Shown piece by piece: positions 18,272 through 32,279 of a DNA stretch of 63,005 nucleotides. The first letter of the stretch is position 1; the number at the start of each line of letters is the position of its first letter. The DNA comes from Salinivibrio sharmensis (GTDB lineage: Bacteria > Pseudomonadota > Gammaproteobacteria > Enterobacterales > Vibrionaceae). Made by a program: the position numbers and the translations under genes. The stretch is taken from NCBI RefSeq assembly GCF_001995985.1, contig NZ_MUFC01000016.1, positions 258-63,262 on the forward strand, read 5' to 3'. The notes under the pieces were generated by a model that was given only the letters and a program-made list of their open reading frames with translations, was not told the DNA's origin and did not search any database.

Positions 18272-18362
18272 TGATCAATCTCTTAGTTCTCTTGTTACAA
18301 AATTGATAAACCCCATATCTGGTGGTAGCTTTATTGAAAACAAAGGGAAAGATAGCCGCATT

Positions 18363-18995
18363 ATGGAAGCGCAACACACCATCGTTATTGCCGACGATCA
18401 TCCACTGTTTCGAAATGCTTTGTTTCAGTCGGTACACATGGCAATAAGCGGTGCCAACCTGCTAGAGGCAGACAGCTTAGACAGTTTAAATCAGATCCTA
18501 GCGCGAGATGCTGAGGTTGATTTGGTGCTGCTCGACCTTAAAATGCCGGGCGCTAATGGCATGTCGGGCTTAATTGCGCTGCGTCACCAGTATCCTACCC
18601 TGCCAATTGTGGTGGTCTCTGCCAGTGAAGAGCCGAGCGTGATCCGCCAAGTCCGCTCCCATGGCGCGTTTGGTTTTATCCCTAAATCCAGCGATATGCG
18701 TGCATTGGTACAGTCGCTAACCCAAGTGCTTGAAGGCACCCCCTGCTTTCCTGATAATCTCGGCGAAGACGATGAGAGCGAGAGCTTATCTGACAAACTC
18801 GCCACACTGACCCCACAGCAGTACAAAGTGTTGCGAATGCTTTGCGATGGTCTACTGAACAAGCAAATCGCCTACGACCTGGCGGTTTCCGAGGCGACTA
18901 TTAAAGCGCACATGACGGCCATCTTTCGTAAGCTAGGAGTAAAAAACCGCACTCAGGCGGTGATTTTATTGCAGCAATCCAATATCGAACTTTGA
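18363..18995 (+). CDS. crbR: LuxR/NarL-family response regulator, CrbR-like
   Basis: A 210-residue response regulator: receiver domain (1-125) with acidic pair Asp11-Asp12, phospho-acceptor Asp58 in LLDLKMPG and the lysine in FIPKSSDMRAL, then a LuxR-type helix-turn-helix (about 148-205; LTPQQYKVLRMLCDG, NKQIAYDLAVSEATIKAHM). In Vibrio the CrbS-CrbR pair switches on acs and acetate use; here crbS, the symporter pair and acs all lie within 14 kb, which supports the name. The ATG at 18363 begins the receiver strand directly; an upstream TTG at 18303 would add 20 residues with no domain. The ribosome-binding site is weak. Confidence 0.82.
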   Translation: MEAQHTIVIADDHPLFRNALFQSVHMAISGANLLEADSLDSLNQILARDAEVDLVLLDLKMPGANGMSGLIALRHQYPTLPIVVVSASEEPSVIRQVRSHGAFGFIPKSSDMRALVQSLTQVLEGTPCFPDNLGEDDESESLSDKLATLTPQQYKVLRMLCDGLLNKQIAYDLAVSEATIKAHMTAIFRKLGVKNRTQAVILLQQSNIEL

Positions 18996-19031: not shown

Positions 19032-19664
19032 ATGTTAAGTATTCTTGCTACGCAATTCGTGATTTTATGGGCCGTGATCGACCCTATCGGTAGCGTGCCC
19101 ATTTATCTGTCACAAACCAGCCACATGTCCGCCAAACAAAAGCGCCGCGTCGCGGTGAAAGCCGTGGCGATTGCCTTTGCTATTTTACTGTTCTTTTTAA
19201 TTGTCGGTCAGATTTTGCTCGAAGCCATGCAAATCCCCTTGCCCGCGTTCCAAGCGGCCGGTGGCTTAGTATTGCTATTGTTTTCCCTCACCATGATTTT
19301 CGGTGAAGGAAAACCCAGCCAAGAAGCCAAAATGCTGAGCGAAAACGTGGATAAAGCAGAAATTGCCGCCACCGCAGTGTATCCGCTCGCCGTTCCTTCT
19401 ATCGCCTCTCCCGGCGCCATGATGGCGGTGGTCATGCTCACGGATAACAATCGATATGCCATCGCTGAACAAGCGGTGACCGCTGGGGTGATGTTTTTTG
19501 TTTTGGTCGCGACCTTGGTCTTACTCCTCGGAGCCAATGTCATTCACAAAGTGATTGGCAACGTCGGCGCGTCGATTATCAGCCGCGTCATGGGGCTGAT
19601 CCTAGCCTCCGTCGCCGTTGCTAATTTACTTGAAGGTATCCAAAAGTTTTATCACCTTAGTTAG
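19032..19664 (+). CDS. MarC family integral membrane protein
   Basis: A 210-residue inner-membrane protein with six predicted helices, matching the MarC/YhgN (UPF0056) family. The opening LATQFVILWAVIDPIGSVPIYL and the later YPLAVPSIASPGAMMAVVML are characteristic. MarC was once linked to antibiotic resistance, but that link was not upheld and its transport role is unsettled. It starts 36 bp after crbR in the same direction, so it may be co-transcribed; GGAGCG lies before the ATG. A stem-loop lies 19-41 bp downstream. Why it sits in the acetate locus is not evident from sequence. Confidence 0.9.
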   Translation: MLSILATQFVILWAVIDPIGSVPIYLSQTSHMSAKQKRRVAVKAVAIAFAILLFFLIVGQILLEAMQIPLPAFQAAGGLVLLLFSLTMIFGEGKPSQEAKMLSENVDKAEIAATAVYPLAVPSIASPGAMMAVVMLTDNNRYAIAEQAVTAGVMFFVLVATLVLLLGANVIHKVIGNVGASIISRVMGLILASVAVANLLEGIQKFYHLS

Positions 19665-19682
19665 ACCTTTGGCGCAAGGCTT

Positions 19683-19705
19683 GGCTGGCTCAACCCGAGC
19701 CAGCC
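19683..19705 (+). repeat. Perfect stem-loop after the MarC gene
   Basis: GGCTGGCTC (19683-19691) and GAGCCAGCC (19697-19705) pair perfectly across AACCC. No T tract follows, so it may be a weak or factor-dependent terminator separating crbR-marC from the symporter operon. Confidence 0.7.
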
Positions 19706-19761
19706 GTACCTAGCTCACAAAAACCCTGTTTTTTCCGCTCATTACCGCTTACTGCGCTCGA

Positions 19762-19778
19762 CTAAAGTTGCAATGTCG
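19762..19778 (+). promoter_or_regulatory. CTAAAGT-type motif upstream of the DUF4212/symporter operon
   Basis: CTAAAGT-TGC-AATGTCG. The same pattern (CTAAAGT, three bases, A-W-TGTCG) occurs upstream of acs, and CTAAAGT also upstream of the DUF294 gene. This points to a shared regulator site in the acetate locus; CrbR is the obvious candidate. Confidence 0.45.
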
Positions 19779-19844
19779 CTTCGTCCATCCCCTGCTATCG
19801 TCTTCAAGTAACATTCCATTAACGTGCTAAACAAGGAGAAGGCG

Positions 19845-20111
19845 ATGGCGTTTCAAAGCAAGGAACACGCGAAAGCCTACTGGGACAGAAACGTAAAACT
19901 GATGATCAGTCTACTGATTGTCTGGTTTGTTGTCTCATTCGGCTGTGGGATCTTATTCGTGGATGCCCTCAATACCATTCAAATTGGTGGCTACAAACTC
20001 GGGTTCTGGTTTGCTCAGCAGGGATCAATTTATACCTTCCTCGGCATCATATTCGTGTATGCCAAACAAATGCGCAAACTCGATCGCGAGTTCGGCGTGG
20101 ACGACGAGTAA
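19845..20111 (+). CDS. DUF4212 small subunit of a sodium:solute symporter
   Basis: An 88-residue protein with two membrane helices (about 22-42 and 57-77) and the family segments AKAYWDRNVKLMISLL and LGFWFAQQGSIYTF. DUF4212 proteins are encoded directly before a large sodium:solute symporter and are thought to be its small subunit. Here the symporter starts 12 bp downstream. The ATG at 19845 is fixed by AAGGAGAAGG immediately upstream; an in-frame ATG 21 bases earlier lacks such a site. Probably co-regulated with acs through the motif at 19762-19778. Confidence 0.93.
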   Translation: MAFQSKEHAKAYWDRNVKLMISLLIVWFVVSFGCGILFVDALNTIQIGGYKLGFWFAQQGSIYTFLGIIFVYAKQMRKLDREFGVDDE

Positions 20112-20123
20112 GAGGACTAACAC

Positions 20124-21851
20124 ATGGATTTAAGAACCATTACTTATATTGTTGTCGGGTTCACGTTCGCACTCTATATTGGGATTGCGATCTGGGCACG
20201 CGCAGGCTCCACCAAAGAGTTCTATGTTGCCGGTGGCGGGGTTAATCCGGTTGCCAACGGGATGGCAACCGCTGCCGACTGGATGTCAGCGGCCTCGTTC
20301 ATTTCTATGGCCGGCTTAATCGCGTTTATGGGCTATGGGGGCTCGGTCTTTTTGATGGGCTGGACTGGCGGCTTCGTGCTCCTCGCACTGTTGCTCGCCC
20401 CTTACCTACGTAAGTTTGGCAAATTTACCGTGCCAGAGTTTGTCGGTGAGCGCTTCTACTCAAAAACCGCGCGCATTGTTGCCGTCGTTTGTTTGATCAT
20501 CGCCTCGGTCACTTATGTTATCGGCCAGATGAAAGGGGTCGGGGTCGCCTTTGGGCGCTTCTTAGAAGTTGACTACTCCACCGGGCTATTAATCGGTATG
20601 GTCATTGTCTTTATGTATTCCGTGATGGGCGGGATGAAGGGCATTACTTACACCCAAATTGCTCAGTATTGCGTGCTCATTTTGGCTTACACTATTCCCG
20701 CAATCTTCATCTCCCTCAAACTGACGGGTAACCCATTCCCACAGCTTGGCTTAGGTAGCACCATGGCGGGGACCGATCAATACTTGCTCGACCGGCTTGA
20801 TCAGGTGGTGACCGAACTCGGCTTTGTCGAATACACCACCGCGGTGCGTGGTAGCACACTTAACATGTTTGCCTATACCATGTCACTGATGATAGGTACG
20901 GCCGGTTTACCGCACGTCATTATCCGCTTCTTTACCGTCCCTAAGGTGCGTGATGCGCGTACATCCGCTGGTTGGGCACTGTTCTTTATCGCCATCTTGT
21001 ACACCTCAGCCCCCGCGGTAGCGGCAATGGCTCGCTTGAACCTGATGGACACGGTGAACCTGCCTAACGGTGACAACCTTGCCTACGATCAGCGTCCTGA
21101 CTGGTTTAAAAACTGGGAGACTACTGGACTACTGGGCTTTGAAGATAAAAACGGTGACGACAAAATCCAATACACCTCAAACGCTGAAACCAACGAGCTA
21201 CGCGTTGACCGTGACATCATGGTGTTGGCAAACCCTGAAATCGCCAAACTCCCTAACTGGGTGATTGCGCTGGTCGCTGCCGGTGGCTTAGCCGCGGCAC
21301 TGTCGACTGCCGCCGGGTTGTTGCTTGCGATATCGTCGGCGATATCCCACGACTTAATTAAAGGGGTCGTCAATCCGAATATCAGCGAAAAAGGCGAACT
21401 GCTGGCGAGCCGGATATCTATGGCATTAGCCATCGCTGGGGCCGGTTACTTAGGGCTCAACCCACCAGGCTTTGCGGCCGGGACGGTGGCACTGGCGTTC
21501 GGCTTGGCCGCATCATCGATTTTCCCAGTGCTAATGATGGGGATCTTCACCAAAACCATCAACAAAGAGGGTGCGATTGCCGGTATGGTCGCAGGGATCA
21601 GCGTCACCCTATTCTACGTATTCCAACACAAGGGGATTCTATTTATCTCTGATTGGACCTACTTAGAAAGCCTCGGTAGCAACTGGATTCTCGGTATCGA
21701 GCCAAATGCCTTTGGCGCGGTGGGCGCTGTATGTAACTTTGTGGTGGCAATCATTGTCTCACGTCTGACCAAAGAGACACCGCAAGAGGTTCAAGATTTG
21801 GTCGAGCACGTTCGCATGCCATCTGGCGCGGGTGATGCACAATCACACTAA
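20124..21851 (+). CDS. Sodium:solute symporter, large subunit (ActP-like, probable acetate uptake)
   Basis: A 575-residue inner-membrane transporter of the SSS family with about 13 helices. Recognisable are EFYVAGGGVNPVANGMATAADWMSA in two runs, GKFTVPEFVGERFY, the central GLPHVIIRFFTVPKVRDAR and AAALSTAAGLLLAISSAI, all close to acetate permease ActP. A polar loop of about 70 residues (305-375) marks the branch that pairs with DUF4212; it contains DKNGDDKI (341-348), reminiscent of an EF-hand or dockerin calcium loop. AGAGGA precedes the ATG. Acetate is the likeliest substrate because the locus also carries crbS/crbR and acs, but propionate or another monocarboxylate is possible. Followed by a strong terminator. 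Confidence 0.9.
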   Translation: MDLRTITYIVVGFTFALYIGIAIWARAGSTKEFYVAGGGVNPVANGMATAADWMSAASFISMAGLIAFMGYGGSVFLMGWTGGFVLLALLLAPYLRKFGKFTVPEFVGERFYSKTARIVAVVCLIIASVTYVIGQMKGVGVAFGRFLEVDYSTGLLIGMVIVFMYSVMGGMKGITYTQIAQYCVLILAYTIPAIFISLKLTGNPFPQLGLGSTMAGTDQYLLDRLDQVVTELGFVEYTTAVRGSTLNMFAYTMSLMIGTAGLPHVIIRFFTVPKVRDARTSAGWALFFIAILYTSAPAVAAMARLNLMDTVNLPNGDNLAYDQRPDWFKNWETTGLLGFEDKNGDDKIQYTSNAETNELRVDRDIMVLANPEIAKLPNWVIALVAAGGLAAALSTAAGLLLAISSAISHDLIKGVVNPNISEKGELLASRISMALAIAGAGYLGLNPPGFAAGTVALAFGLAASSIFPVLMMGIFTKTINKEGAIAGMVAGISVTLFYVFQHKGILFISDWTYLESLGSNWILGIEPNAFGAVGAVCNFVVAIIVSRLTKETPQEVQDLVEHVRMPSGAGDAQSH

Positions 21852-21868
21852 TACAGTGTTAATCTATC

Positions 21869-21888
21869 AAGCCCCTTCGGGGGCTTTT
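21869..21888 (+). terminator. Rho-independent terminator after the symporter gene
   Basis: AAGCCCC (21869-21875), a TTCG tetraloop and GGGGCTT (21880-21886) followed by TT end the DUF4212-symporter operon. Confidence 0.88.
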
Positions 21889-21920
21889 ACACGGTTTATT
21901 ACTTCCAGCCAAGGAGAGGC

Positions 21921-22433
21921 ATGATGTCGACGGTTACGCGTTTATTAACCAACAAGCATGTGGTCATTGCAATGCTGGTCGCCCCCATTTTAGCGGTGAT
22001 CGCTTATTTCGCCGTCGATAAGGCGGTCTCCGAACCACCAAAAGCCGCGCAGCCAGGACAAAGCTACCCGCTTGCGGTCCGTTCTAACTGTCGCTATACC
22101 AGTGGCTTTTGTCAGCTCGAAAATGGCGATATGAAACTCAAACTGAAATCGCAAGGTGTCGAGAACAATCAGCTAACGCTAAGGTTGGTCAGCGAGCTGC
22201 CTTTGGAGGGCGCGCAAATTGGTTTGACAGAGACCCCCCCACAAACCATGCAAATTCGCGATGAAAAAGGCACTACTTGGACGGTTACCCTCCCTGCTCC
22301 AAGCAGTGAGGAGACGCAAATTCGTCTAGCCGTGAGTATGGAGGGGAGCCACTATTATGCAGAAACACCCGTGACCTTTATCGAACACAAAACGTTTTAT
22401 ACCGAACACCAACAATCTCAGGATGCGTCATAA
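21921..22433 (+). CDS. Unknown membrane-anchored protein, possible periplasmic beta-sandwich
   Basis: I do not recognise this 170-residue protein with certainty. One helix near 14-32 (HVVIAMLVAPILAVIAYFAV) anchors it, with the rest outside the cytosol. The outer part has two cysteines (NCRYTSGFCQLENG, possibly a disulfide) followed by alternating strands ending in ETPVTFIEH, a pattern reminiscent of FixH/YtkA-like beta-sandwich domains. ATG 21921 or 21924 may be used; AAGGAG at 21911-21916 suits the second better. It follows the symporter terminator by 32 bp and faces the 74-residue gene downstream of crbS. An accessory role in the acetate transport or signalling system is conceivable from position only. 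Confidence 0.75.
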   Translation: MMSTVTRLLTNKHVVIAMLVAPILAVIAYFAVDKAVSEPPKAAQPGQSYPLAVRSNCRYTSGFCQLENGDMKLKLKSQGVENNQLTLRLVSELPLEGAQIGLTETPPQTMQIRDEKGTTWTVTLPAPSSEETQIRLAVSMEGSHYYAETPVTFIEHKTFYTEHQQSQDAS

Positions 22434-22440
22434 CGTCTAA

Positions 22441-22469
22441 CCGTATCATACCGCGTAGGTACGATACGG
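22441..22469. repeat. Long hairpin between convergent transcripts
   Basis: CCGTATCATACC (22441-22452) pairs with GGTACGATACGG (22458-22469) with one mismatch around GCGTA. It lies between the unknown anchored protein and the crbS operon end; without T tracts it is a possible factor-assisted terminator for both. Confidence 0.65.
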
Positions 22470-22475
22470 AACCAC

Positions 22476-22700
22476 TCACGCATTGGGCCATATCAACGAT
22501 GAACGGATCGCGACCACAATGGTGGCGATTTTGTTTTCATACGCTTGCTCTGTCAGCCAATGGCTGACATCCGCCCAGCCATCACCGTCCAGGTGGGCTA
22601 GCTCATCAACGTCGATATGCCCATTCACCGGATCAAAGTGCCCTTCCACTTTGACAATGCCGACATCGGTTTCTAAACGGGGTAACGAAAAAGGGGTCAT
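22476..22700 (-). CDS. Unknown 74-residue protein coupled to crbS
   Basis: Small soluble protein starting MTPFSLPRLETDVGIVKVEG, acidic in the middle (HIDVDELAHLDGDGWADVSHWL) and with a hydrophobic C-terminal strand ATIVVAI. No family is recognised. Its ATG overlaps the crbS stop codon (ATGA), so it is translationally coupled to the kinase, which argues that it is real and that its dose follows that of CrbS. It could be a partner or output protein of the signalling system, but that is position-based inference. No signal peptide or membrane helix is seen. Confidence 0.7.
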   Translation of the reverse strand: MTPFSLPRLETDVGIVKVEGHFDPVNGHIDVDELAHLDGDGWADVSHWLTEQAYENKIATIVVAIRSSLIWPNA

Positions 22701-25700
22701 GATTTTCCTCGCTGTTGTAATAAAGCGCGCAGTTTAAGTGGCTTAACGGGTTTAGAAAGATACCTAAAGCCTAGACCAGTCACGGTCTGCTGTGTTTCCG
22801 CACTGCGATCAGCGCTGATGATCACTCCCTCAAAACAGCAGCCTAACTTCAGTTGGCATTGTTGCAGCACTTGTAACCCAGTTTGCTGGTTCGTTAAGTG
22901 ATAGTCACTCAGGACAAACTCAGGCTGCCATTGGTCGCCGATCGTCTTGATCGCACCACTCACGTCGGGGGCGCAGCGAACGTCGCATCCCCACCGTGAT
23001 AAAAGCTGTGCCATACCATCCAAGATGTCTTGCTCATTATCCACACATAAGACACGGCACCCTTCGAGTCCTTGCGCCGAAGAGGTAGTAGGCGCCAAAG
23101 GACTTGGCTCAACCTTTTCCGCTTGGCTCGCATTCACCGTCATCGAGAACACCGTGCCCCGACCTGGCCAGGATTTTAATGCCAGAGGTTGCGCGAGTAT
23201 TTGGCTAATACCTTTAGCAATCGCTAACCCTAAGCCCAATCCCTGTTCGGCGCCTTCGCGGTCAATGCGAGTAAACTCTTGAAAGATATCTTGCTGACGA
23301 TCAAGGGGGATCCCCTCACCGTCGTCCCACACTTCAATACGATAGTCATTTCCTACTCGCCGCACGCCCAGCAATACACGACCTTCTGGGTTGTAACGAA
23401 AGGCATTGGTCAAAAAGTTTTGTAGCACCCGACGCAGCAGGTTTTTATCTGATTGGACGTAGACTTGGCTGTTGACGACGCGAAAGTCCAATCCTTGGCG
23501 GCGCGCCAGTACACCAAATTCAGCCTCTAGCGCATCAAACACCTCACTGAGTGCAAACGTCTCAATACGCGCTTTCATTTTGCCCGATTCAAGGCGGGAA
23601 ATATCAAGCAGATCGCCAATCAACACTTCCGCACTTTCCAGCGCGCTTTCGATGTGATGGGCAACAGCCTCTGTATCTCGGTTGTCTGCCATCTCACTGA
23701 GTGATGAGGCGAACAAGCGTGCCGCATTCAGTGGCTGCATCAAATCATGACTAACCGCCGCCAAAAAACGGCTTTTCGACTGAGAGGCGGATTCGGCCTT
23801 ACGAGTGGCATCAATCAAGCGACTATTTAATCGCTCCAATTCCCGCGTTCGCTCTGTCACCCGCGCTTCGAGGGTCTCGTTAGACTGCTTGAGCGCCGCT
23901 TCCGCATCCCGGAACGCGGTGATATCGGTAAAGGTCATGACAAAGCCACCACCTGGCATCGGATTGCCTTGCAGCTCAATCACTCGACCATCGGGGTGCA
24001 CACGAGAGGAGGTATGCGGCTTTCGTCGCGTTAAGTGCATCACCCGCTTGCTCACGTGATCCTCAGGGTCGCCTGGTCCACACAATCCACGCTGAGCATT
24101 GAACCGAATTAAATCCGCGACCGGTCGCCCGACTTGGATAAGGCCGGGTGGAAATTGAAACATATCAATATACCGCTGATTCCATGCCACCAGCCGCAGT
24201 TGCTTATCAACCACTGAGATCCCTTGATTGATATGCTCTATCGCCCCTTGCAGTAACCCCCGGGAAAAATCAAACAGCTCAGAGGCCTCATCAACAATGG
24301 TGGCAATTTCTTCCAACTGCATATTGCGCCCTTGCAGGGCCGATGAAAGGACTAAGCGTGCCGACGACGAACCAAACACGCCTGCCAACACCCGCTCGGT
24401 ATGCCGAATAAGTGGCGCGCTAGCTTGCTGCTGAGGCATTAATTCTTCCCCACGCTGTTCACCAAATTGGCTAAACGCCTGGCGCATGCGCCGGCGACCC
24501 ACGAAGCGAGCCGCGAGCATTTCCAATTCCGCCACAGTGACACGGCTTTGATACAAGCGCGCATCATCGTTTTCCGGCAGAGGCATCCCCACAAACGCCG
24601 CGGCTTGTAGACGCTCACTGAGTGATGGCCGCGTGAGTAAAGAAACCACCACAAAGCTAAGGGCGTTCATTAACACACTAAAGGCCAGTCCCCAATCCAC
24701 GGTATTGAGGTGGATAAACGGTGAAAAAGCGGGAGGAGTGATAAGCCAAATCAAAAGGTTAGATTGCCCATCCCCAGCCAGCATGCCGGTTTGGGTCATC
24801 ATGGTGATCAACCACAGCACAAAGCCAATCAGCAACCCGGCATAGACGCCTTTCTTGTTACCTTGACGCCAGTACAAGGCACCAATCATCGCTGGAGCAA
24901 ACTGGGCGATAGCCGCGAAGGAAAGAAAACCAATTTCCGACAACGTGGGCACAGTGAGGATCAGATGATAAAAGCCCCACGCGGCAATTAAAATTAAAAA
25001 GATCAGCGCTCGGCGAACATTAAGCAACAGCCCTGAGAACTGCGCAAAATTTCTGGATTTCAGCTTCATGCGCCGCAACAACAGTGGCATCACCAAGTCA
25101 TTGGATACCATGATCGCCAACGCAATGGTGGAAACAATCACCATCCCGCTGGCAGCCGATGCCCCACCCATAAAAGCCAGTAGCGCCATCCCTTCAGCCT
25201 CTACCGATAGCGGCAACCGAATCACGTACGTATCGGCGGGCGCACCAGGCAGCAGCGCTTGACCGGCGTATGCCAATGGCAGGACAAAAATCAACATCAG
25301 TAATAAATAGGTCGGGAATACTTTACGCGCCGTATTCAAATCACTCGCGCGCGTATTCTCCACCACCATGGTGTGAAACTGGCGTGGCAAGCAAATGATC
25401 GCCGCCCCCGTCAAAAACGTGTGGATGATTAAGCTGCCCACATCCGGGCGACCAATCACCCCAGAGTCCTCAAGGCTCACGGGCAAGCTAGGGGCTTGGA
25501 ATAGCAGCCACACCACAAAAATCCCCACTCCGAGAAACGCCACCAGCTTGACGATCGACTCGAAAGCGACCGCCATCATCATCCCTCGGTGGTGCTCAGT
25601 GCTATCAATATGACGGGTACCAAATAACACGGTAAATGCGGCCAAGGAGATACACACAAGCCACGCGATTTGGGGTTGTGCCAAGCCAATACTTTGTCCC

Positions 25701-26143
25701 AGTTCTGGCGACAGAACGTCGAGCCCCATGGCGATACCACGCAGTTGCAACGCGATATAGGGCAGCACGCCTACCACAGCAATCAAGGTCACCATCACCG
25801 CTAGGCCCTGCGATTTTCCGTAACGAGCAGCGATAAAATCGGCAATAGAGGTAATATGTTCGCGCTTGGCGATCAAGATCATCCGGGCAAGAAAACGCCA
25901 CCCAAGAGTGAACACCAGGATAGGGGCAAGATAGATAGGTAAAAAGGACCACGGCGAGCTAGATGCTTGGCCAACCGTGCCAAAAAACGTCCAAGAGGTG
26001 CAATACACCGCGATCGAAAGGCTGTAAATCCAAGGACGCCACGAGCGCAACCAGCGCGGCTGTCGGTCGCCATACCAGGCAATCGCGAACAGCGCACCCA
26101 TATATAGCAGTGAAACAGAGACAATTACCCAGCCTTGTGTCAT
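22697..26143 (-). CDS. crbS: Symporter-fused hybrid sensor histidine kinase, CrbS-like
   Basis: A 1148-residue inner-membrane sensor. Residues 1 to about 510 form a sodium:solute-symporter-like domain with some 13 helices, fused to a PAS domain (about 630-740; HINQGISVVDKQLRLVAWNQ), a coiled coil, a HisKA domain with His799 in VSHDLMQPLNAARLF, a HATPase domain (N-box NFLTNAFRYNP near 910, G-box GLGLGLAIAKG near 970) and a C-terminal receiver with Asp1080 in VLSDYHL and Lys1131. In Vibrio and Pseudomonas such kinases work with CrbR-type regulators to turn on acs during the acetate switch. GGGAGCC precedes the ATG. Followed by an overlapping 74-residue gene. Confidence 0.92.
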   Translation of the reverse strand: MTQGWVIVSVSLLYMGALFAIAWYGDRQPRWLRSWRPWIYSLSIAVYCTSWTFFGTVGQASSSPWSFLPIYLAPILVFTLGWRFLARMILIAKREHITSIADFIAARYGKSQGLAVMVTLIAVVGVLPYIALQLRGIAMGLDVLSPELGQSIGLAQPQIAWLVCISLAAFTVLFGTRHIDSTEHHRGMMMAVAFESIVKLVAFLGVGIFVVWLLFQAPSLPVSLEDSGVIGRPDVGSLIIHTFLTGAAIICLPRQFHTMVVENTRASDLNTARKVFPTYLLLMLIFVLPLAYAGQALLPGAPADTYVIRLPLSVEAEGMALLAFMGGASAASGMVIVSTIALAIMVSNDLVMPLLLRRMKLKSRNFAQFSGLLLNVRRALIFLILIAAWGFYHLILTVPTLSEIGFLSFAAIAQFAPAMIGALYWRQGNKKGVYAGLLIGFVLWLITMMTQTGMLAGDGQSNLLIWLITPPAFSPFIHLNTVDWGLAFSVLMNALSFVVVSLLTRPSLSERLQAAAFVGMPLPENDDARLYQSRVTVAELEMLAARFVGRRRMRQAFSQFGEQRGEELMPQQQASAPLIRHTERVLAGVFGSSSARLVLSSALQGRNMQLEEIATIVDEASELFDFSRGLLQGAIEHINQGISVVDKQLRLVAWNQRYIDMFQFPPGLIQVGRPVADLIRFNAQRGLCGPGDPEDHVSKRVMHLTRRKPHTSSRVHPDGRVIELQGNPMPGGGFVMTFTDITAFRDAEAALKQSNETLEARVTERTRELERLNSRLIDATRKAESASQSKSRFLAAVSHDLMQPLNAARLFASSLSEMADNRDTEAVAHHIESALESAEVLIGDLLDISRLESGKMKARIETFALSEVFDALEAEFGVLARRQGLDFRVVNSQVYVQSDKNLLRRVLQNFLTNAFRYNPEGRVLLGVRRVGNDYRIEVWDDGEGIPLDRQQDIFQEFTRIDREGAEQGLGLGLAIAKGISQILAQPLALKSWPGRGTVFSMTVNASQAEKVEPSPLAPTTSSAQGLEGCRVLCVDNEQDILDGMAQLLSRWGCDVRCAPDVSGAIKTIGDQWQPEFVLSDYHLTNQQTGLQVLQQCQLKLGCCFEGVIISADRSAETQQTVTGLGFRYLSKPVKPLKLRALLQQRGKS

Positions 26144-26248
26144 GGCTCCCTTCCTGGCGCAATCCTTTGCCGAATCCTTGAGCTGGGTGTAACACGGTAT
26201 CGGCGCCCACTCAATCGTCTCGTATTCGCTTTGTGGGCACCTTAGCTA

Positions 26249-26254
26249 ACTTTA
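26249..26254 (-). promoter_or_regulatory. TAAAGT half-motif upstream of crbS
   Basis: On the minus strand GTAAAGTTAGCTAAGG lies about 105 bp before crbS and shares TAAAGT with the three CTAAAGT sites of the locus. It is shorter and so weaker; it is listed because autoregulation of the system would be expected. Confidence 0.25.
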
Positions 26255-26293
26255 CTGCAAGCCTTAACGTGGTGTATTACCGCTCAGGCCTGT

Positions 26294-27469
26294 TTATGCC
26301 ACCTTAGCTTGCTTGGCACGCCAAAATGCCGGTTCACGCAGTGGTAAAACAAAAACAGGCAAGGCAAGCAGTGCCATGGTATAGAAAGTGCCTGAAGGCG
26401 ATACGGCATAAATCCACCCGCTTGCTGTGGTCAGCGCCGCTACCACTGCGCCCATTGGCAACGCATTGTAAGCCGCTTGTGTGGCCACCAATCGCGCCCC
26501 ACATTCGCGTTGAATGTACTGCATCGCGCCAAGGTGCGCACCGGCAAACGTAATACCATGAAGCAGTTGCACCAGTATCACAGGCACCGCGGCGGTGGTG
26601 GTCCCTGTGATCCCCCAGCGCAGCAATACACCCACAGCCGCCAATTGGAACAAGGCTTTTGATGACCAGCCATTAAAAAGCCGCGCCCCCAAGGCAAAGA
26701 CGGCCACTTCCGCCACAACCCCGAGGCTCCACAAATAGCCCACGATGCTCTCGCTATATCCAGCCTGCTTCCAGTAGATCGCACTAAAGCTGTAGTACGC
26801 TGCGTGGCTGCCTTGCAGCAGGGAGGCGATTAACAAGAACACGATCACCTGACGGTCTCGAAAAAGCTGACGCATAGAGACTTTGCTATTGGTCATATCG
26901 CGCTCGCTTTGTGGCATCAATGTCGGTCGACGCAACGTCAGTAACAAACAGGCAGACAAGCCGCCAATCGCGACCCAGGGAATAATCGCCGCCGACTGCT
27001 CGGTCACTAGCCATCCGGTCAAACTCGACCCAACAATAAAGGCAATCGACCCCCAGAGGCGGGTTCGACCATAGTCGATGACTTTATGGCGGGCATAGTA
27101 GTTGGCGAGTGCATCCGACAACGGGACGGAGGGACCAATCGCTAGATTAAATAACACGGTCACCAAAGCCAGCCACCACACATTAGCCCCCATCATAGGA
27201 TGCAATGCACACGTCACTAACGCCATGAGTGTCAAGGCCCGCAGCGCCGGCAACAAGGCTTCAACCTGTTGTACGCGAGGTGTGAACACTAAGTTGGCCA
27301 CACAACGGGTCGCAAAACCAAGCCCAATCAAGGTGCCGATCACTCCTGAATTGAGACCAAGATACTCAAACCAAACTGCCCAAAACGGGAGATACACACC
27401 ATAGGAAAAAAAGAAACCGCCAAAGTATTCTGACAGCCAGCGAAACGGGGAACATTGGGTTAAGGTCAT
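26294..27469 (-). CDS. MFS transporter, HcaT (3-phenylpropionate permease) family
   Basis: A 391-residue major facilitator protein with 12 predicted helices. The opening FRWLSEYFGGFFFSYGVYLPFW, GPSVPLSDALANYYARH and the YGRTRLWGSIAFIVGSSLTG run are characteristic of the HcaT/PP-MFS branch, which is named for phenylpropionate uptake in E. coli but has diverse members. The true substrate is unknown here; an organic acid is plausible given the acetate locus. It lies upstream of crbS on the same strand with a 150-bp gap, and is divergent from the DUF294 gene with a shared regulatory region. Confidence 0.85.
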   Translation of the reverse strand: MTLTQCSPFRWLSEYFGGFFFSYGVYLPFWAVWFEYLGLNSGVIGTLIGLGFATRCVANLVFTPRVQQVEALLPALRALTLMALVTCALHPMMGANVWWLALVTVLFNLAIGPSVPLSDALANYYARHKVIDYGRTRLWGSIAFIVGSSLTGWLVTEQSAAIIPWVAIGGLSACLLLTLRRPTLMPQSERDMTNSKVSMRQLFRDRQVIVFLLIASLLQGSHAAYYSFSAIYWKQAGYSESIVGYLWSLGVVAEVAVFALGARLFNGWSSKALFQLAAVGVLLRWGITGTTTAAVPVILVQLLHGITFAGAHLGAMQYIQRECGARLVATQAAYNALPMGAVVAALTTASGWIYAVSPSGTFYTMALLALPVFVLPLREPAFWRAKQAKVA

Positions 27470-27597
27470 CTCATTACTTCACATTAAGATAGATACCCGC
27501 TAAGTGTCGCAGCTCTGTGCGAGGAAAAAAAGACACTCATGCCATGATTGTCGACAAATGCGTGGTGGTGACTAATCCGTATACGTCCCTGGCTAGA

Positions 27598-27604
27598 CTA
27601 AAGT
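27598..27604 (+). promoter_or_regulatory. CTAAAGT motif in the MFS / DUF294 divergent region
   Basis: CTAAAGT within GACTAAAGTC, itself a GACT/AGTC palindrome, and flanked on both sides by GGCTAG (27591 and 27606). It shares its core with the sites at 19762 and 30194. Candidate CrbR site for the DUF294-exonuclease unit or the divergent MFS gene. Confidence 0.35.
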
Positions 27605-27633
27605 CGGCTAGCGAGATCGAAAAGGGTGAGACA

Positions 27634-27652
27634 CACTGTGACTATCACAGTG
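27634..27652 (+). promoter_or_regulatory. Perfect hairpin abutting the DUF294 ribosome-binding site
   Basis: CACTGTGA (27634-27641), CTA, TCACAGTG (27645-27652): an 8-bp perfect palindrome whose last G is the first base of the Shine-Dalgarno GAGGAG (27652-27657). As RNA it would form a stem next to the initiation site and could tune translation. As DNA it could be an operator. It is not a CRP site, since the TGTGA/TCACA halves are three, not six, bases apart. Confidence 0.55.
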
Positions 27653-27664
27653 AGGAGTGCGACT

Positions 27665-29461
27665 ATGCCAGAACCTTTTGACACCTCTCATGCGCCCTTT
27701 GACTGCCTAACCGCATCACAAGTCAAACAATGCCGCCAAGCGCTCGACGTCGCCTACTTTCGCCGTGGCGATACCTTGATCCAGCCCGGTGATACGGGCG
27801 AGCAGCTCTTTATCATTATTAAAGGCAGCGTGGAAGAAGTGTCAGAAGACGGCAAGGAAGTGTTTTCTCATTATACCACCGACGACTTATTTGACGTGCC
27901 AGCACTGCTTAATGGCACCGCCAAACATCAATACCGTGCGCTAGAAGATACCCTCTGCCATCTGCTTCCCGCCGAGGTGTTCCTCGCCATTTATCATCAT
28001 AATCACGCGTTTCGAGGCTACTTTGATACCAACCTTCAGCGCCGACAAACGCTGATGGTGCAAGCTCGTCAACAGCAAAATCTGGCCGAGTTTATGCTCA
28101 CTCGGATTGATGACAGCAATATTCAACCTGCGTTGTGTGTCACCCCCGACGTACCACTGCATGTTGCCACCGCTCAGATGAAAGCCGAGCGCTGCGACTG
28201 CGCCTTGGTCGACTATGAAAATGGCGAATGCGGGATTATTACGCGCACCAACTTGCTCCATGCGCTCGTCCTCGAGGGCTATGATCAATCCGTTCCGGTG
28301 GGTGAAGTAGCCACACGCCCAGTGATCAGTGTGGAGCACGGTGACTTTCTCTTTCACGCCATGATTAAAATGACACGTCAGCGCGTAAAACGTGTTCGGG
28401 TCGTCGATGGGGAAGGTAAGACCGCAGGGATGCTCGATCTTCCTCAAGTATTGAGCCTGTTCTCGACTCACTCTCACGTGCTCAACTTACAAATTGCCCG
28501 CGCACAAACCATTGACGAACTAGTGATCGCCGCAAACAGCCAGAGCAAGCTGGTACACACCTTGTTTAACAATGGCATTCATACCCGCTTTGTGATGCAG
28601 CTCATCGCCACGGTGAATGAGCAAATCATGGAAAAAGCCTTCCGGTTGCTGGTGCCCGAAGCTTACCAAAGTCAGTGCTGCTTGGTGGTCATGGGCTCTG
28701 AAGGGCGCGGCGAGCAAGTGCTTAAAACCGACCAAGACAACGCCTTGATTCTCGCCGACGATCTCAACTGGCCCGATTGCCAGCAAGTGATGGAAACCTT
28801 TTCACATACACTCTATCAACTCGGTTATCCGCCCTGCCCGGGTAATGTGATGGTCAGTAACCCCAAATGGGTGAAAACCGCCGCACAGTGGCAGCAAACC
28901 GTGCGTAATCTGGCACAAAGTGCCAACCATCAAAGTGTCATGGACTTGGCGATCCTCGCTGACAGCCAGCCGATCGCCGGCGATCTGAGTCTGATTGATG
29001 CGATCCACACACCACTCAACGACACCTTGACCGACAATATGTTGACGCTCAACACCTTTGTCCGGCCTGCGCTAGCCTTTCGTGTTCCCTTAACCGTGTT
29101 TGGCTCCCTCAAAAGCAGCAAAGAAGGGCTGGATATCAAAAAAGGGGGGATTTTTCCCATCGTCCATGGCGTACGTACCATGAGCTTGGAAAAAGGCGTG
29201 CGCCACACCAACACCTTTGAGCGTCTAGAACAGCTGGCAAAGCTGGGGGCGCTCGCCGAAGAAACCGCAGACAACCTCTCCGAAGCCTTAAAACTGTTTA
29301 TCCGGCTGCGCCTCAGGCAGCAATTGAGCGGCGAGCCACAAAGCAACTACCTGGACGTCTCCCAACTCCCCTCGAGTGAGCGCGACTTGCTGCGCCACGG
29401 GCTGCATGTGGTGAAAAAGTTCAAAGAGTCACTCGCTTTCCATTATCACGTGAGGGACTAA
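27665..29461 (+). CDS. cNMP-binding / CBS / DUF294 nucleotidyltransferase-like protein
   Basis: A 598-residue cytosolic protein with an N-terminal cyclic-nucleotide-binding domain (about 15-130; YFRRGDTLIQPGDTGEQLFI), a CBS pair (about 147-275), a DUF294 nucleotidyltransferase domain with MGSEGRGEQ and LKTDQDNALI near 343-365 (the GS-x-R-x-E and D-x-D signature), and a C-terminal DUF294_C domain. The reaction is not known for certain; GlnD-like protein nucleotidylylation is one idea. Such genes regularly sit beside acs, symporters and crbS. The ATG at 27665 follows GAGGAG by seven bases. It is two bases from the exonuclease gene downstream. Confidence 0.9.
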   Translation: MPEPFDTSHAPFDCLTASQVKQCRQALDVAYFRRGDTLIQPGDTGEQLFIIIKGSVEEVSEDGKEVFSHYTTDDLFDVPALLNGTAKHQYRALEDTLCHLLPAEVFLAIYHHNHAFRGYFDTNLQRRQTLMVQARQQQNLAEFMLTRIDDSNIQPALCVTPDVPLHVATAQMKAERCDCALVDYENGECGIITRTNLLHALVLEGYDQSVPVGEVATRPVISVEHGDFLFHAMIKMTRQRVKRVRVVDGEGKTAGMLDLPQVLSLFSTHSHVLNLQIARAQTIDELVIAANSQSKLVHTLFNNGIHTRFVMQLIATVNEQIMEKAFRLLVPEAYQSQCCLVVMGSEGRGEQVLKTDQDNALILADDLNWPDCQQVMETFSHTLYQLGYPPCPGNVMVSNPKWVKTAAQWQQTVRNLAQSANHQSVMDLAILADSQPIAGDLSLIDAIHTPLNDTLTDNMLTLNTFVRPALAFRVPLTVFGSLKSSKEGLDIKKGGIFPIVHGVRTMSLEKGVRHTNTFERLEQLAKLGALAEETADNLSEALKLFIRLRLRQQLSGEPQSNYLDVSQLPSSERDLLRHGLHVVKKFKESLAFHYHVRD

Positions 29462-29462
29462 T

Positions 29463-30086
29463 TTGAATTGGCTGACTCGGCATTGGTACCGTCATCGTCT
29501 ACGACACTCACCCTATCGGGACTTATTTTTGCCCCCCGACTCAAGCACGCTGATTTCCCTCGACTGTGAAACGACCAGCCTGGATCCGCATCGTGCAGAG
29601 CTGGTTACGATTGCGGCCACCCCGATCAAAGGCAACCGGATCCTCACCAGTCACGCTCTCACCTTGACACTGGCCGCACCAGAGAGCCTAAACGCCGGCT
29701 CGGTCAGAATTCATAAACTCCGCCACCAGGATCTCGCCCACGGTGTCAGTGCAGCGCAAGCGATCACCGCACTGGTCGACTTTATTGGAAACTACCCCTT
29801 AGTTGGCTACCATATTCGTTACGATAAAAGCATTCTCGATCGTTACGCACGCCAGTATCTTGGCTTTCCGCTGCCCAACCCCCTGATTGAGGTCAGCGAT
29901 ATTTATCAACGCAAACTCGAGCGCCTGCTTCCTAATGCCTATCACGACATCAGCATCGAAGCCATCAGTCGTCATCTTGATATCCCTTTACCTGCCCGAC
30001 ATGATGCGCTGGATGATGCGTTGGCGGCGGCATTAATTTACGTCCGCCTCACCCAAGGTGAGATGCCCATGCTGCAATCCAAATAA
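29463..30086 (+). CDS. DEDDh 3'-5' exonuclease (DnaQ-like)
   Basis: A 207-residue protein with the four acidic/His motifs of the DEDDh family: LISLDCETTSLDPHRAEL (ExoI, Asp and Glu), GYHIRYDKSILDRY (ExoII, Asp) and PARHDALDDALAAA (ExoIII, His and Asp). It resembles the epsilon proofreading subunit but is a stand-alone exonuclease. Initiation is at a TTG one base after the DUF294 stop codon; GAGGGA in the end of that gene provides the ribosome-binding site, so translation is coupled. Its pairing with a DUF294 protein is a recurring arrangement in gammaproteobacteria, with a joint function that has not been explained. Confidence 0.9.
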   Translation: MNWLTRHWYRHRLRHSPYRDLFLPPDSSTLISLDCETTSLDPHRAELVTIAATPIKGNRILTSHALTLTLAAPESLNAGSVRIHKLRHQDLAHGVSAAQAITALVDFIGNYPLVGYHIRYDKSILDRYARQYLGFPLPNPLIEVSDIYQRKLERLLPNAYHDISIEAISRHLDIPLPARHDALDDALAAALIYVRLTQGEMPMLQSK

Positions 30087-30185
30087 CACATCGAAGCCGC
30101 GACTTGCGCACTAAGCCAAAGACAAAGTGGGATCCAGCCCCCACTATCTGGCCTGACAACTGCACAAACCGCTTAAAAATCAATG

Positions 30186-30218
30186 GGGTCATCCTAAAGT
30201 CTAATTGTCGGATGACCC
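30186..30218 (+). promoter_or_regulatory. Inverted repeat enclosing the CTAAAGT motif upstream of acs
   Basis: GGGTCATCC (30186-30194) and GGATGACCC (30210-30218) are perfect 9-bp inverted arms around TAAAGTCTAATTGTC. The motif CTAAAGT-CTA-ATTGTCG (30194-30210) overlaps the arms and matches the site before the DUF4212 operon at 13 of 17 positions. A possible -10 TATATC follows at 30221-30226 with a poor -35, as expected for an activator-dependent promoter. Likely binding region of the acetate-switch regulator. Confidence 0.5.
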
Positions 30219-30329
30219 GATATATCTCACCTTTACTGCATGGTTTTCGTTTGCCAGGCAGCGGTAACGCCTGACATCTCACGACATGGAAGCGCCGCGT
30301 GGAGCATCGCGGACACGAGGAGAAACAGG

Positions 30330-32279
30330 ATGAGCGATAGTCACGTATACCCCGTCATGCCTTCAATTGCACAAAAGGCACACGCTGATGAAGCCAAGTA
30401 TCAAGCACTGTATCAGCAGTCAGTGACCGACCCAGAAGGTTTTTGGCATGAGCACGGGCAAATTCTTGATTGGATGACGCCTTATACCAAAGTCAAACAC
30501 ACCTCATTTGATACCGGCCATGTGGATATCCGCTGGTTTGAAGATGGTACCTTGAACGTGGCAGCCAACTGTATTGACCGTCATCTTAAAGACAAAGGCG
30601 ATCAGGTTGCCTTAATTTGGGAAGGCGACGATCCAAAAGACGATGCCACGCTCACCTACAACCAACTCCACCAGCAGGTATGCCAATTTGCCAACGTGTT
30701 AAAAGATAACGGCGTCAGAAAAGGCGATGTGGTATGTCTTTATATGCCGATGGTGATGGAAGCCGCCGTCGCGATGCTGGCGTGCGCCCGTATTGGTGCG
30801 GTGCATACCGTGGTGTTTGGCGGCTTTTCTCCCGAAGCACTGGCAGGCCGAATTATTGACTCCAATGCCAAAGTGGTGGTGACAGCCGATGAAGGGATAC
30901 GTGGTGGCCGTGCGGTGCCCCTGAAGAAAAACGTCGATGATGCCCTAGCAAACCCTAAAGTGAAATCGATTGAAAAAGTGGTGGTGTACCAACGCACCGG
31001 CGGTAATATTGACTGGCACAGTCATCGTGATGTGTGGTGGCACGAGGCCGCTGCGAAGGTGTCAGACGACTGCCCCGCCGAAGAAATGAAAGCCGAAGAC
31101 CCTTTGTTTATTCTTTACACATCAGGCTCCACAGGCACCCCAAAAGGGGTACTGCACACGACCGGTGGCTATCTGGTGTACGCGGCGATGACCTTTAAGT
31201 ATGTCTTCGACTATCAAGAGGGAGAAGTGTTCTGGTGTACCGCCGATGTCGGCTGGATCACCGGTCACAGCTACCTTGTCTATGGTCCACTAGCCAATGG
31301 TGCGAAAACAATCTTATTTGAAGGTGTCCCCACTTATCCAAGCACGCCACGAATGAGCGAAGTGGTCGATAAGCACCAAGTGAATATTCTTTACACCGCT
31401 CCCACCGCGATTCGCGCACTGATGGCAAAAGGCAACGAAGCGGTCGCGGGCACCCAACGCGACTCACTGCGGATCATGGGCTCGGTGGGTGAACCCATCA
31501 ACCCAGAGGCTTGGGAGTGGTACCACAGCACCATAGGCAACCAAGCCTGTCCGATTGTCGATACTTGGTGGCAAACAGAAACCGGTGGGATCTTGATTAC
31601 CCCGCTACCGGGCGCCACCGCGTTAAAACCAGGCTCGGCAACCCGTCCTTTCTTTGGCGTACAGCCTGCTTTGGTCGACAATATGGGCAATATTCTCGAC
31701 GGTGCCACCGAGGGTAACCTCGTGATGCTTGACTCGTGGCCAGGACAAATGCGTACCGTATTTGGCGACCATGACCGCTTTGAGCAAACTTACTTCTCCA
31801 CCTTTAAAGGCATGTACTTTACCGGTGACGGGGCGCGTCGCGATGAAGATGGCTATTACTGGATAACCGGCCGTGTCGATGATGTCCTCAATATCTCGGG
31901 GCACCGGATGGGCACGGCAGAAATCGAGTCGGCGCTCGTCGCATTCGATAAGATTGCCGAAGCCGCGATTGTTGGTGTACCACACGATATCAAAGGCCAA
32001 GCGATCTATGCGTATATCACCCTCAATGCGAGTGAAGTGCCCAGCGCCGAACTGCACAAAGAAGTCAAAGAGTGGGTACGTAAAGAAATTGGGCCCATCG
32101 CGACGCCCGATTTCATCCACTGGACGGATGCACTACCTAAAACCCGTTCAGGTAAAATCATGCGCCGTATTCTGCGCAAAATTGCCACCGGTGATACCGG
32201 CAGCCTTGGCGACACCTCGACATTGGCCGATCCTAGTGTGGTGGATAAACTTATCGCAGAAAAAGAAAGTGTGGTCTAA
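30330..32279 (+). CDS. acs: Acetyl-CoA synthetase (AMP-forming)
   Basis: Cytosolic enzyme making acetyl-CoA from acetate, ATP and CoA via acetyl-AMP. The 649-residue protein carries the adenylation P-loop [15 protein letters not shown], the A5 motif [11 protein letters not shown] and the C-terminal [11 protein letters not shown], in which Lys609 is the conserved lysine inactivated by acetylation in many bacteria, at the same number as in E. coli. GAGGAG at 30317-30322 fixes the ATG at 30330; longer upstream readings lack it. It is the metabolic output of the acetate locus, and the region before it carries the inverted repeat and CTAAAGT motif. A terminator follows. Confidence 0.97.

Follow-up and report, generated by a model that had tools for sequence, protein, structure and literature searches.

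Do the promoters of the acetate locus of Salinivibrio sharmensis share one regulatory element, and which protein reads it? We approached this question in a stretch of 63,005 nucleotides of contig NZ_MUFC01000016.1 (the window, to which all plain coordinates refer) that carries acs, an operon encoding a DUF4212 protein and a sodium/solute symporter, a gene for a cNMP-CBS-DUF294 protein, and the genes of a CrbS/CrbR-type sensor kinase and response regulator. An initial annotation had correctly read the word CTAAAGT at 19762, 27598 and 30194, had extended it to a 17-base motif (CTAAAGT-N3-AWTGTCG, CTAAAGTNNNAWTGTCG) at the first and last of these, and had named CrbR as the most straightforward common activator. 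We found that the conserved element is not this 17-mer; it is an imperfect palindrome, GAC-TAAA-GTC. The motif itself is already known (as ACTU, from Pseudomonas fluorescens), and the promoters of this locus are new members. We consider it very probable, from comparative sequence evidence, that the element is bound by CrbR (18363-18995), a dimer of which would activate acs, the symporter operon and the DUF294 gene from a position around -43.5.

A palindromic box at a fixed distance from three promoters

Orthologous loci (at most 30 per gene) were drawn from 41 genomes, i.e. the source genome and 40 relatives; G and L numbers are our handles for genomes and loci. Within the family Vibrionaceae, CTAAAGT with palindromic flanks precedes acs in 20 of 20 loci, DUF4212 in 21 of 22 and DUF294 in 19 of 19, the sole miss being G011, a genome without CrbS and CrbR. 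Every promoter class retains its own version of the box, together with its flanks, over nine to ten genera: the acs box reads TCATCCTAAAGTCTAATTG in 15 of the 20 loci (the other five have TTATCC, TCCTCC or CTGACT ahead of TAAAGTCTAATTG), the symporter box ACTAAAGTTGCA in 21 of 22, and the DUF294 box TAGACTAAAGTCG in every locus (the G023 match is truncated, and the box lies far upstream of it). The acs gene of G004, broken in the assembly, lies outside the locus set, and its box is nonetheless visible. The three boxes of the window are:

19757..19772, + strand: predicted proximal ACTU/CrbR box of the DUF4212-symporter operon, CTCGACTAAAGTTGCA (family conservation and matrix)
27593..27608, + strand: predicted ACTU/CrbR box of the DUF294 gene, CTAGACTAAAGTCGGC (present in 8 of 8 genomes of the genus and throughout the family loci)
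30189..30204, + strand: predicted ACTU/CrbR box of acs, TCATCCTAAAGTCTAA (family conservation and matrix)

A matrix built from the family sites and three published sites (threshold p<=0.05, coding strand) recovered the box in CrbS/CrbR-positive genomes upstream of acs in 28/28 loci, of DUF4212 in 27/27 and of DUF294 in 21/23, where the two misses were a truncated match (G023) and a site at p=0.08 (G038). Loci from outside the family, which had no part in the training, scored at this threshold for acs (8/8), DUF4212 (6/6) and DUF294 (3/4). In three tested genomes without CrbS/CrbR (G011, G027, G035) the matrix box was present in none of six loci. The motif, taken as a palindrome, is thus conserved upstream of orthologous genes, and the comparison by which the initial annotation had proposed to test its reading leaves that reading standing.

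The distance from box to promoter is conserved as well. With the C of CTAAAGT numbered 0, the 60 pooled family promoters (weighted by genus) agree most strongly outside the box at G13 (0.93), A35 (0.96) and T39 (1.00); the latter two are the second and sixth bases of a -10 hexamer spanning 34-39. A spacer of 17 bases then places the -35 hexamer at 11-16, where it is the WTGTCG of the 17-mer; G13 is its third base (position -33). In the family, both -10 letters are found at offset 34 in all 20 acs promoters, in 20 of 21 symporter promoters and in 18 of 19 DUF294 promoters. The next-best offset reaches 0.30 in acs and 0.28 in DUF294, and in the symporter promoters a rival offset of 48 attains 0.90, because a conserved element covers the start site there. 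In a set of 80 named symporter loci, a box scoring >=13 within 200 bp is present in 38 (the 42 boxless ones being counted irrespective of CrbS/CrbR), and in these 38 the -10 lies at offset 34 in all 15 from Vibrionaceae and in 22 of the 23 others. Outside the family the same offset holds for 6/6 DUF4212 and 3/3 boxed DUF294 loci. This fixed offset puts the centre of the box near -43.5, so that in all three promoter classes it would lie directly upstream of a sigma-70-type -35 (about -52 to -36). The predicted promoter elements are:

19773..19778, + strand: -35 region ATGTCG of the symporter operon, with a 17-bp spacer to the aligned -10
19796..19801, + strand: -10 hexamer TATCGT of the symporter operon, with TGC ahead; predicted start ~19808
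27632..27637, + strand: -10 hexamer CACACT of the DUF294 gene; predicted start ~27644
30205..30210, + strand: -35 region TTGTCG of acs (TTG in 20/20 family acs loci)
30228..30233, + strand: -10 hexamer CACCTT of acs; predicted start ~30240

A consensus promoter scan of 19600-19860 returned no promoter. From the predicted transcription starts, the ATG codons at 19845, 27665 and 30330 are the likely start codons; hence the DUF294 gene likely begins at ATG 27665 rather than GTG 27626, and acs at ATG 30330 rather than ATG 30240. A reading made from sequence only had recovered a real, published regulatory code, which can now be given base by base (box, -35, -10, predicted transcription starts and likely start codons).

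CrbR as the probable reader of the box

In the acs promoter of Pseudomonas fluorescens, ACTU was described as an imperfect inverted repeat spanning -52 to -36; when mutated, it proved necessary both for induction by acetate and for activation through CrbR in E. coli. The promoters of Vibrio acs, actP and the pflu5625 homologue were scored positive in Table 3 of the same work (PMC5715377). The boxes described above resemble the CrbS/CrbR (MxtR/ErdR) regulon of strain SBW25 in their palindromic core (e.g., TACGACTAAAGTCTAAA in its Table 4), in their targets (acs, a symporter and a cNMP-CBS-nucleotidyltransferase protein) and in their position, since the predicted centre of ~-43.5 falls within the published interval (PMC5715377). 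They differ from it in having promoter-specific box versions, a second inverted box ~96 bp upstream of the symporter box, and further boxes before a cobB-like gene and gntR-prpB. Taken together, the match to published ACTU, the conservation upstream of orthologues and the joint absence of boxes and CrbS/CrbR support well the common activator that had been proposed.

The gene identities noted earlier (crbR-like, marC, DUF4212 plus symporter, crbS-like, MFS, cNMP-CBS-DUF294, exonuclease and acs) were all confirmed. The genes concerned are:

18363..18995, + strand: crbR, LuxR/NarL-type response regulator (Response_reg and GerE domains), presumed reader of the box; start codon assumed, inside the open reading frame 18303-18995
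19845..21851, + strand: DUF4212 small subunit and VC_2705-type sodium/solute symporter (PF13937, SSF; TIGR03647 and TIGR03648 above cut-off)
22697..26143, - strand: crbS, hybrid sensor kinase (PAS_7, HisKA, HATPase_c, Response_reg)
27665..29461, + strand: cNMP-CBS-DUF294-DUF294_C protein (by its domains; a PFLU5625-like signalling protein, product type after PMC5715377)
29463..30086, + strand: RNase_T-type exonuclease (by its domain)
30330..32279, + strand: acs, acetate--CoA ligase (TIGR02188, 1011 bits)

The best NCBIfam model for CrbR is ErdR (NF041830, 258 bits; the next, NarL, gives 109), and its helix-turn-helix is nearly invariant among relatives. Matches to CrbS and CrbR fall in the same 30 of the 41 genomes. 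Vibrio vulnificus AcsR is a CrbR homologue, and in gel shifts it binds a 284-bp fragment from upstream of acsA; the numbering of marC (VVMO6_00195) beside the regulator (VVMO6_00196) parallels the neighbourhood of marC and crbR in the window (PMC4409781). The portions of that paper available mention neither a footprint, a box, prpB and propion- terms, nor a deacetylase.

For the source organism we infer the following course. CrbS would activate CrbR, a dimer of which would occupy the GAC-TAAA-GTC palindrome, whose centre is near -43.5 and next to a poor -35, and would recruit RNA polymerase in a class-II-type activation at the acs, DUF4212/symporter and DUF294 promoters.

Several observations weigh against this assignment. 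The CrbR score of 258 bits is below the strict ErdR model cut-off of 390. The inverted repeat GAC-N4-GTC of the published sites is present with degenerate arms, the left half-site of acs being ATC instead of GAC and the right half of the symporter box GTT. Outside the family, the -10 letters stand exactly at offset 34 in only 5 of 8 acs boxes. Pseudomonas putida ErdR gave no shift of the acsA-I promoter, and the ACTU motif was not found there (PMC8402216, in the portions available). Lastly, CTAAAGT is in the window at chance level, with four copies against 4.55 expected, so that the 7-mer alone proves nothing. The fourth copy, at 30955 within the acs coding sequence, had been overlooked in the initial annotation, which held the copies at 19762, 27598 and 30194 to be the only ones and all to be intergenic.

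The box could instead be read by another NarL/LuxR-type regulator, with CrbR merely a neighbour. Boxes of the same type outside the acetate locus and the many candidate relatives of CrbR in each genome (7-79 at first look) would suit such a reader; the published mutations, however, tie the motif to CrbR (PMC5715377), and boxes and CrbS/CrbR are jointly absent from G011, G027 and G035, which leaves this explanation improbable. Still less credit is due to the proposal that the 17-mer itself is a two-part activator operator. The window has two exact copies (at 19762 and 30194; expectation from 100 shuffles, 0.00), and the rest of the 3.33-Mb genome has none, as the genome scan suggested in the initial annotation established (one-mismatch versions occur twice, L003 and L004), and exact copies recur in the acs promoters of 5 of 10 genera. 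Within the family, however, the exact 17-mer is present in just 8/20 acs, 9/21 DUF4212 (2 of 10 genera) and 0/19 DUF294 promoters, and its right half falls where the aligned -10 places the -35, a region in which only the G at -33 is widely common. The motif originally proposed was thus correct as letters at its two sites, its conserved unit being the palindrome and its AWTGTCG half the -35 region. That the three promoters are alike by chance or recent duplication, as the chance frequency of the 7-mer might suggest, is refuted by promoter-specific flanks kept over nine to ten genera together with a common -10 offset, and we give it practically no weight.

The upstream regions of the two regulatory genes served as controls. 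The TAAAGT at 26249, earlier taken for a remnant of a site before crbS, finds no support as one: the crbS region of the window scores p=0.498, and none of the 21 family regions reaches p<=0.05 on the coding strand (G006 and G019 have partial matches), while two score on the other strand (G015, G024). Table 4 of PMC5715377, in contrast, lists crbS, at q=0.6. Among nine crbS regions outside the family, coding-strand sites occur in three (G033, G038, G039) and sites on the opposite strand in five (G029, G033, G038, G039, G040); in G033, G029 and G040 the letters are those of a box already assigned to a divergent DUF294 or acs neighbour. Upstream of crbR, coding-strand sites were found in 2/21 family regions (G015, and G022, whose listed locus is a non-orthologue) and in 2/9 outside the family (G036, G029); with such counts we do not claim autoregulation for the family, and consider it possible elsewhere.

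A few observations concern the proteins themselves. The symporter scores 854 bits against TIGR03648 (cut-off 321) and was rejected as the ActP equivalog TIGR02711 (138 bits, cut-off 1099); the closest named relatives of its DUF4212 partner are from Enterovibrio and Vibrio. For the N-terminal transporter-type (SLC5) domain of CrbS there was no Pfam match at 1e-3. In G006 crbS seems split (G006:C8:24642-26439) and what G022 retains of crbR at the locus is a broken piece (G022:C43:15330-15632), in each case through assembly error or real loss. The exonuclease gene is possibly cotranscribed with the DUF294 gene, judging by adjacency.

A distal inverted box of the symporter promoter

The symporter operon has a second box of the ACTU type, inverted relative to the first and overlapping the stop codon of marC:

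19661..19676, - strand: distal ACTU-type box, TTAGACCTTTGGCGCA as read on the + strand, its centre 96 bp from that of the proximal box

Its aligned consensus on the + strand is TTAGACCTTTGGCTAA. Where a Vibrionaceae region has a proximal box, the distal one is kept in 35 of 36 cases, at 94-98 bp in 33 and at 88 bp in two (genus g7), and the remaining region, from Vibrio ulleungensis, has a weaker distal site at 97 bp. The consensus was taken from the family loci; 14 of 15 named loci outside this set (some perhaps congeneric with its members) pass it, and shuffled sequence does so in 3.8% of trials. The box matrix, which was not trained on the distal site, gives p<=0.05 on the minus strand in 15/21 family loci with a proximal box and p=0.07-0.17 in the other six; in G023 the best minus-strand match is a third site, 30 bp further upstream. 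We regard the distal box as a probable auxiliary CrbR site of the symporter promoter, which most likely would allow cooperative or loop-type binding of CrbR.

Alternatively, the distal box might be a relic, a mark of the 3' end of the upstream gene, or the box of an antisense promoter, and not a CrbR site. Of the alternatives considered here this one keeps the most weight, and we still hold it unlikely. Its overlap with the marC stop codon, its weak score in the source genome (p=0.09) and the strong hairpin that follows it would fit such an origin. The near-constant distance at which it is kept speaks against this reading, as does G011, which lacks CrbS/CrbR and has neither the proximal nor the distal box. 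An antisense or divergent promoter is further contradicted by the -10 letters at offset 34 from the distal box, which are conserved on neither strand (in 35 regions, A and T in 11 and 6 on +, 12 and 8 on -). A 3'-end mark is contradicted by G010, G013, G019 and G020, where crbR lies 255-371 bases from DUF4212, marC is not between them, and the distal box is still present.

With the distal box read as an auxiliary CrbR site, the promoter would join a familiar class. CRP and AraC act at promoters with paired proximal and distal sites, and the symporter promoter likewise has a proximal site and a second one at near-constant distance; the pair would offer a case for how a regulator of the NarL/LuxR type works at a distance. 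In the literature searched, which mostly did not include subscription papers, and in the available portions of PMC5715377, we found no distal box at such a spacing described for a CrbR-type regulator.

The hairpin lies between the two boxes, after marC (19683-19705, z=-4.58, GGCTGGCTC/GAGCCAGCC), and has no terminator-like T run. In Pseudoalteromonas the symporter promoters have a further ACTU-type box, oriented like the proximal one and 133-146 bp upstream of it, in 8/8 loci checked (L215, L216, L219, L240 (weak), L271, L273, L275, L282). Over the predicted symporter start lies TAACATTCCATTAAC (19809-19823), also found in relatives, which matches an ArcA-type box with two mismatches to the consensus; six family genomes have a second copy of this type near the distal box, 129-131 bp from the first. 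Anaerobic repression is possible.

Boxes beyond the acetate locus

The initial annotation had confined the motif to the acetate locus. This does not hold, as ACTU-type boxes, reached by a search of the genus with KMCYAARGTCKAA, also stand before a cobB-like gene and before gntR-prpB, and both recur in several genera of Vibrionaceae. In the source genome they are:

G000:C39:102939-102951 (L307): ACTU-type box of the cobB-like gene
G000:C2:107682-107694 (L291): ACTU-type box of gntR-prpB

Within the genus, GACTAAGGTCTAA precedes the Sir2-type deacetylase (cobB-like) gene in 6 of 8 genomes and GACCAAGGTCTAA does so in G007, and GACCAAAGTCTAA is found in 7 of 8 before a GntR/FCD gene that is followed by prpB and a prpC-like fragment. 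The cobB-like product passes the model for Sir2 family NAD+-dependent deacetylases (NF001755, 418 bits, cut-off 318) and falls short of the CobB equivalog (NF040867, 218 bits versus 320). By letter pattern its box is present in 15 of 20 CrbS/CrbR-positive family loci (p<=0.05 in 13 of the 20), and in 13 of these 15 TATAA follows at offset 44-46, one helical turn beyond the spacing of the acetate promoters. Outside the family, 2/7 CrbS/CrbR-positive loci score on the coding strand. The box was not found in G012, G013, G015, G016 and G022 (truncated match), nor in G011, G028 and G035, which are without CrbS/CrbR. For prp, the coding strand gives p<=0.05 in 10/17 family loci, and the other strand does so in G015; the box of G006 is further upstream of a truncated match, G010 (which has a second prp-type locus, L370) is borderline at p=0.055, and no box was found in G013, G014, G022 and G023. 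Outside the family 2/6 prp loci score on the coding strand. Many prp upstream regions (L347-L369) have ATTGTCNACAA palindromes just downstream of the ACTU-type box, which are perhaps the operator of the GntR regulator itself.

We lean, by a modest degree, towards a short-chain acid regulon in Vibrionaceae wider than the one described, in which CrbR would work a two-box switch (cooperative or looping) at the symporter and would also control the cobB-like gene and gntR-prpB, linking the uptake and activation of acetate to protein deacetylation and propionate use. If the cobB-like target is true, one regulator would both make Acs and supply a deacetylase of the Acs-activating type, an activity stated for V. 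cholerae CobB (PMC7858070). In a V. cholerae csrA mutant cobB tracks the acetate-switch genes, as a trend that is not significant for every gene (PMC7858070); the literature searched on CrbR with cobB (subscription papers being mostly outside it, and the papers available in part) treats cobB as a CsrA target and does not name CrbR control. The prp box would be a Vibrionaceae parallel to Pseudomonas aeruginosa, where an erdR mutant grows more poorly on propionate than an acsA mutant (PMC9765439). Within the literature searched, the paired box and the additional targets are apparently undescribed. The present analysis adds new promoters to the known motif and shows that their distance to the -10 is fixed; it also makes a paired-box symporter promoter probable and points to two possible further targets.

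Genome-wide, KMCTAAAGTY occurs at 17 places, five of which have A and T at the -10 positions: the acs, symporter and DUF294 promoters, L131 (inside a 470-aa reading frame) and L137 (by our inference the end of rnpA). Most of the remaining places were discarded as lying inside reading frames, and those that look intergenic (L130, L134, L138, L141) lack A2/T6 of the -10. In the eight genomes of the genus GACTAAAGTC is found at 43 places, 40 of which were clustered (those left out are the DUF294 sites of G001, G002 and G004). Clusters without a long reading frame are DUF294 (8/8 genomes), the gap between an rluC-type gene and rne (5/8), a receiver-EAL gene (4/8) and single-genome sites. The rluC-type/rne site (the L138 cluster) was rejected, as it has no -10 at offset 34. 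Upstream of the receiver-EAL gene the palindrome GACTTTAGTC/GACTAAAGTC is exact in all four genomes (L126, L160, L165, L175); towards the gene, L126 and L165 have a -10-like TACGCT at offset 34, L175 has it one base further on, and L160 lacks it. This gene is a possible further target of CrbR. The L134 locus holds, at L134:86-207 on the minus strand, the small RNA MtlS (Rfam).

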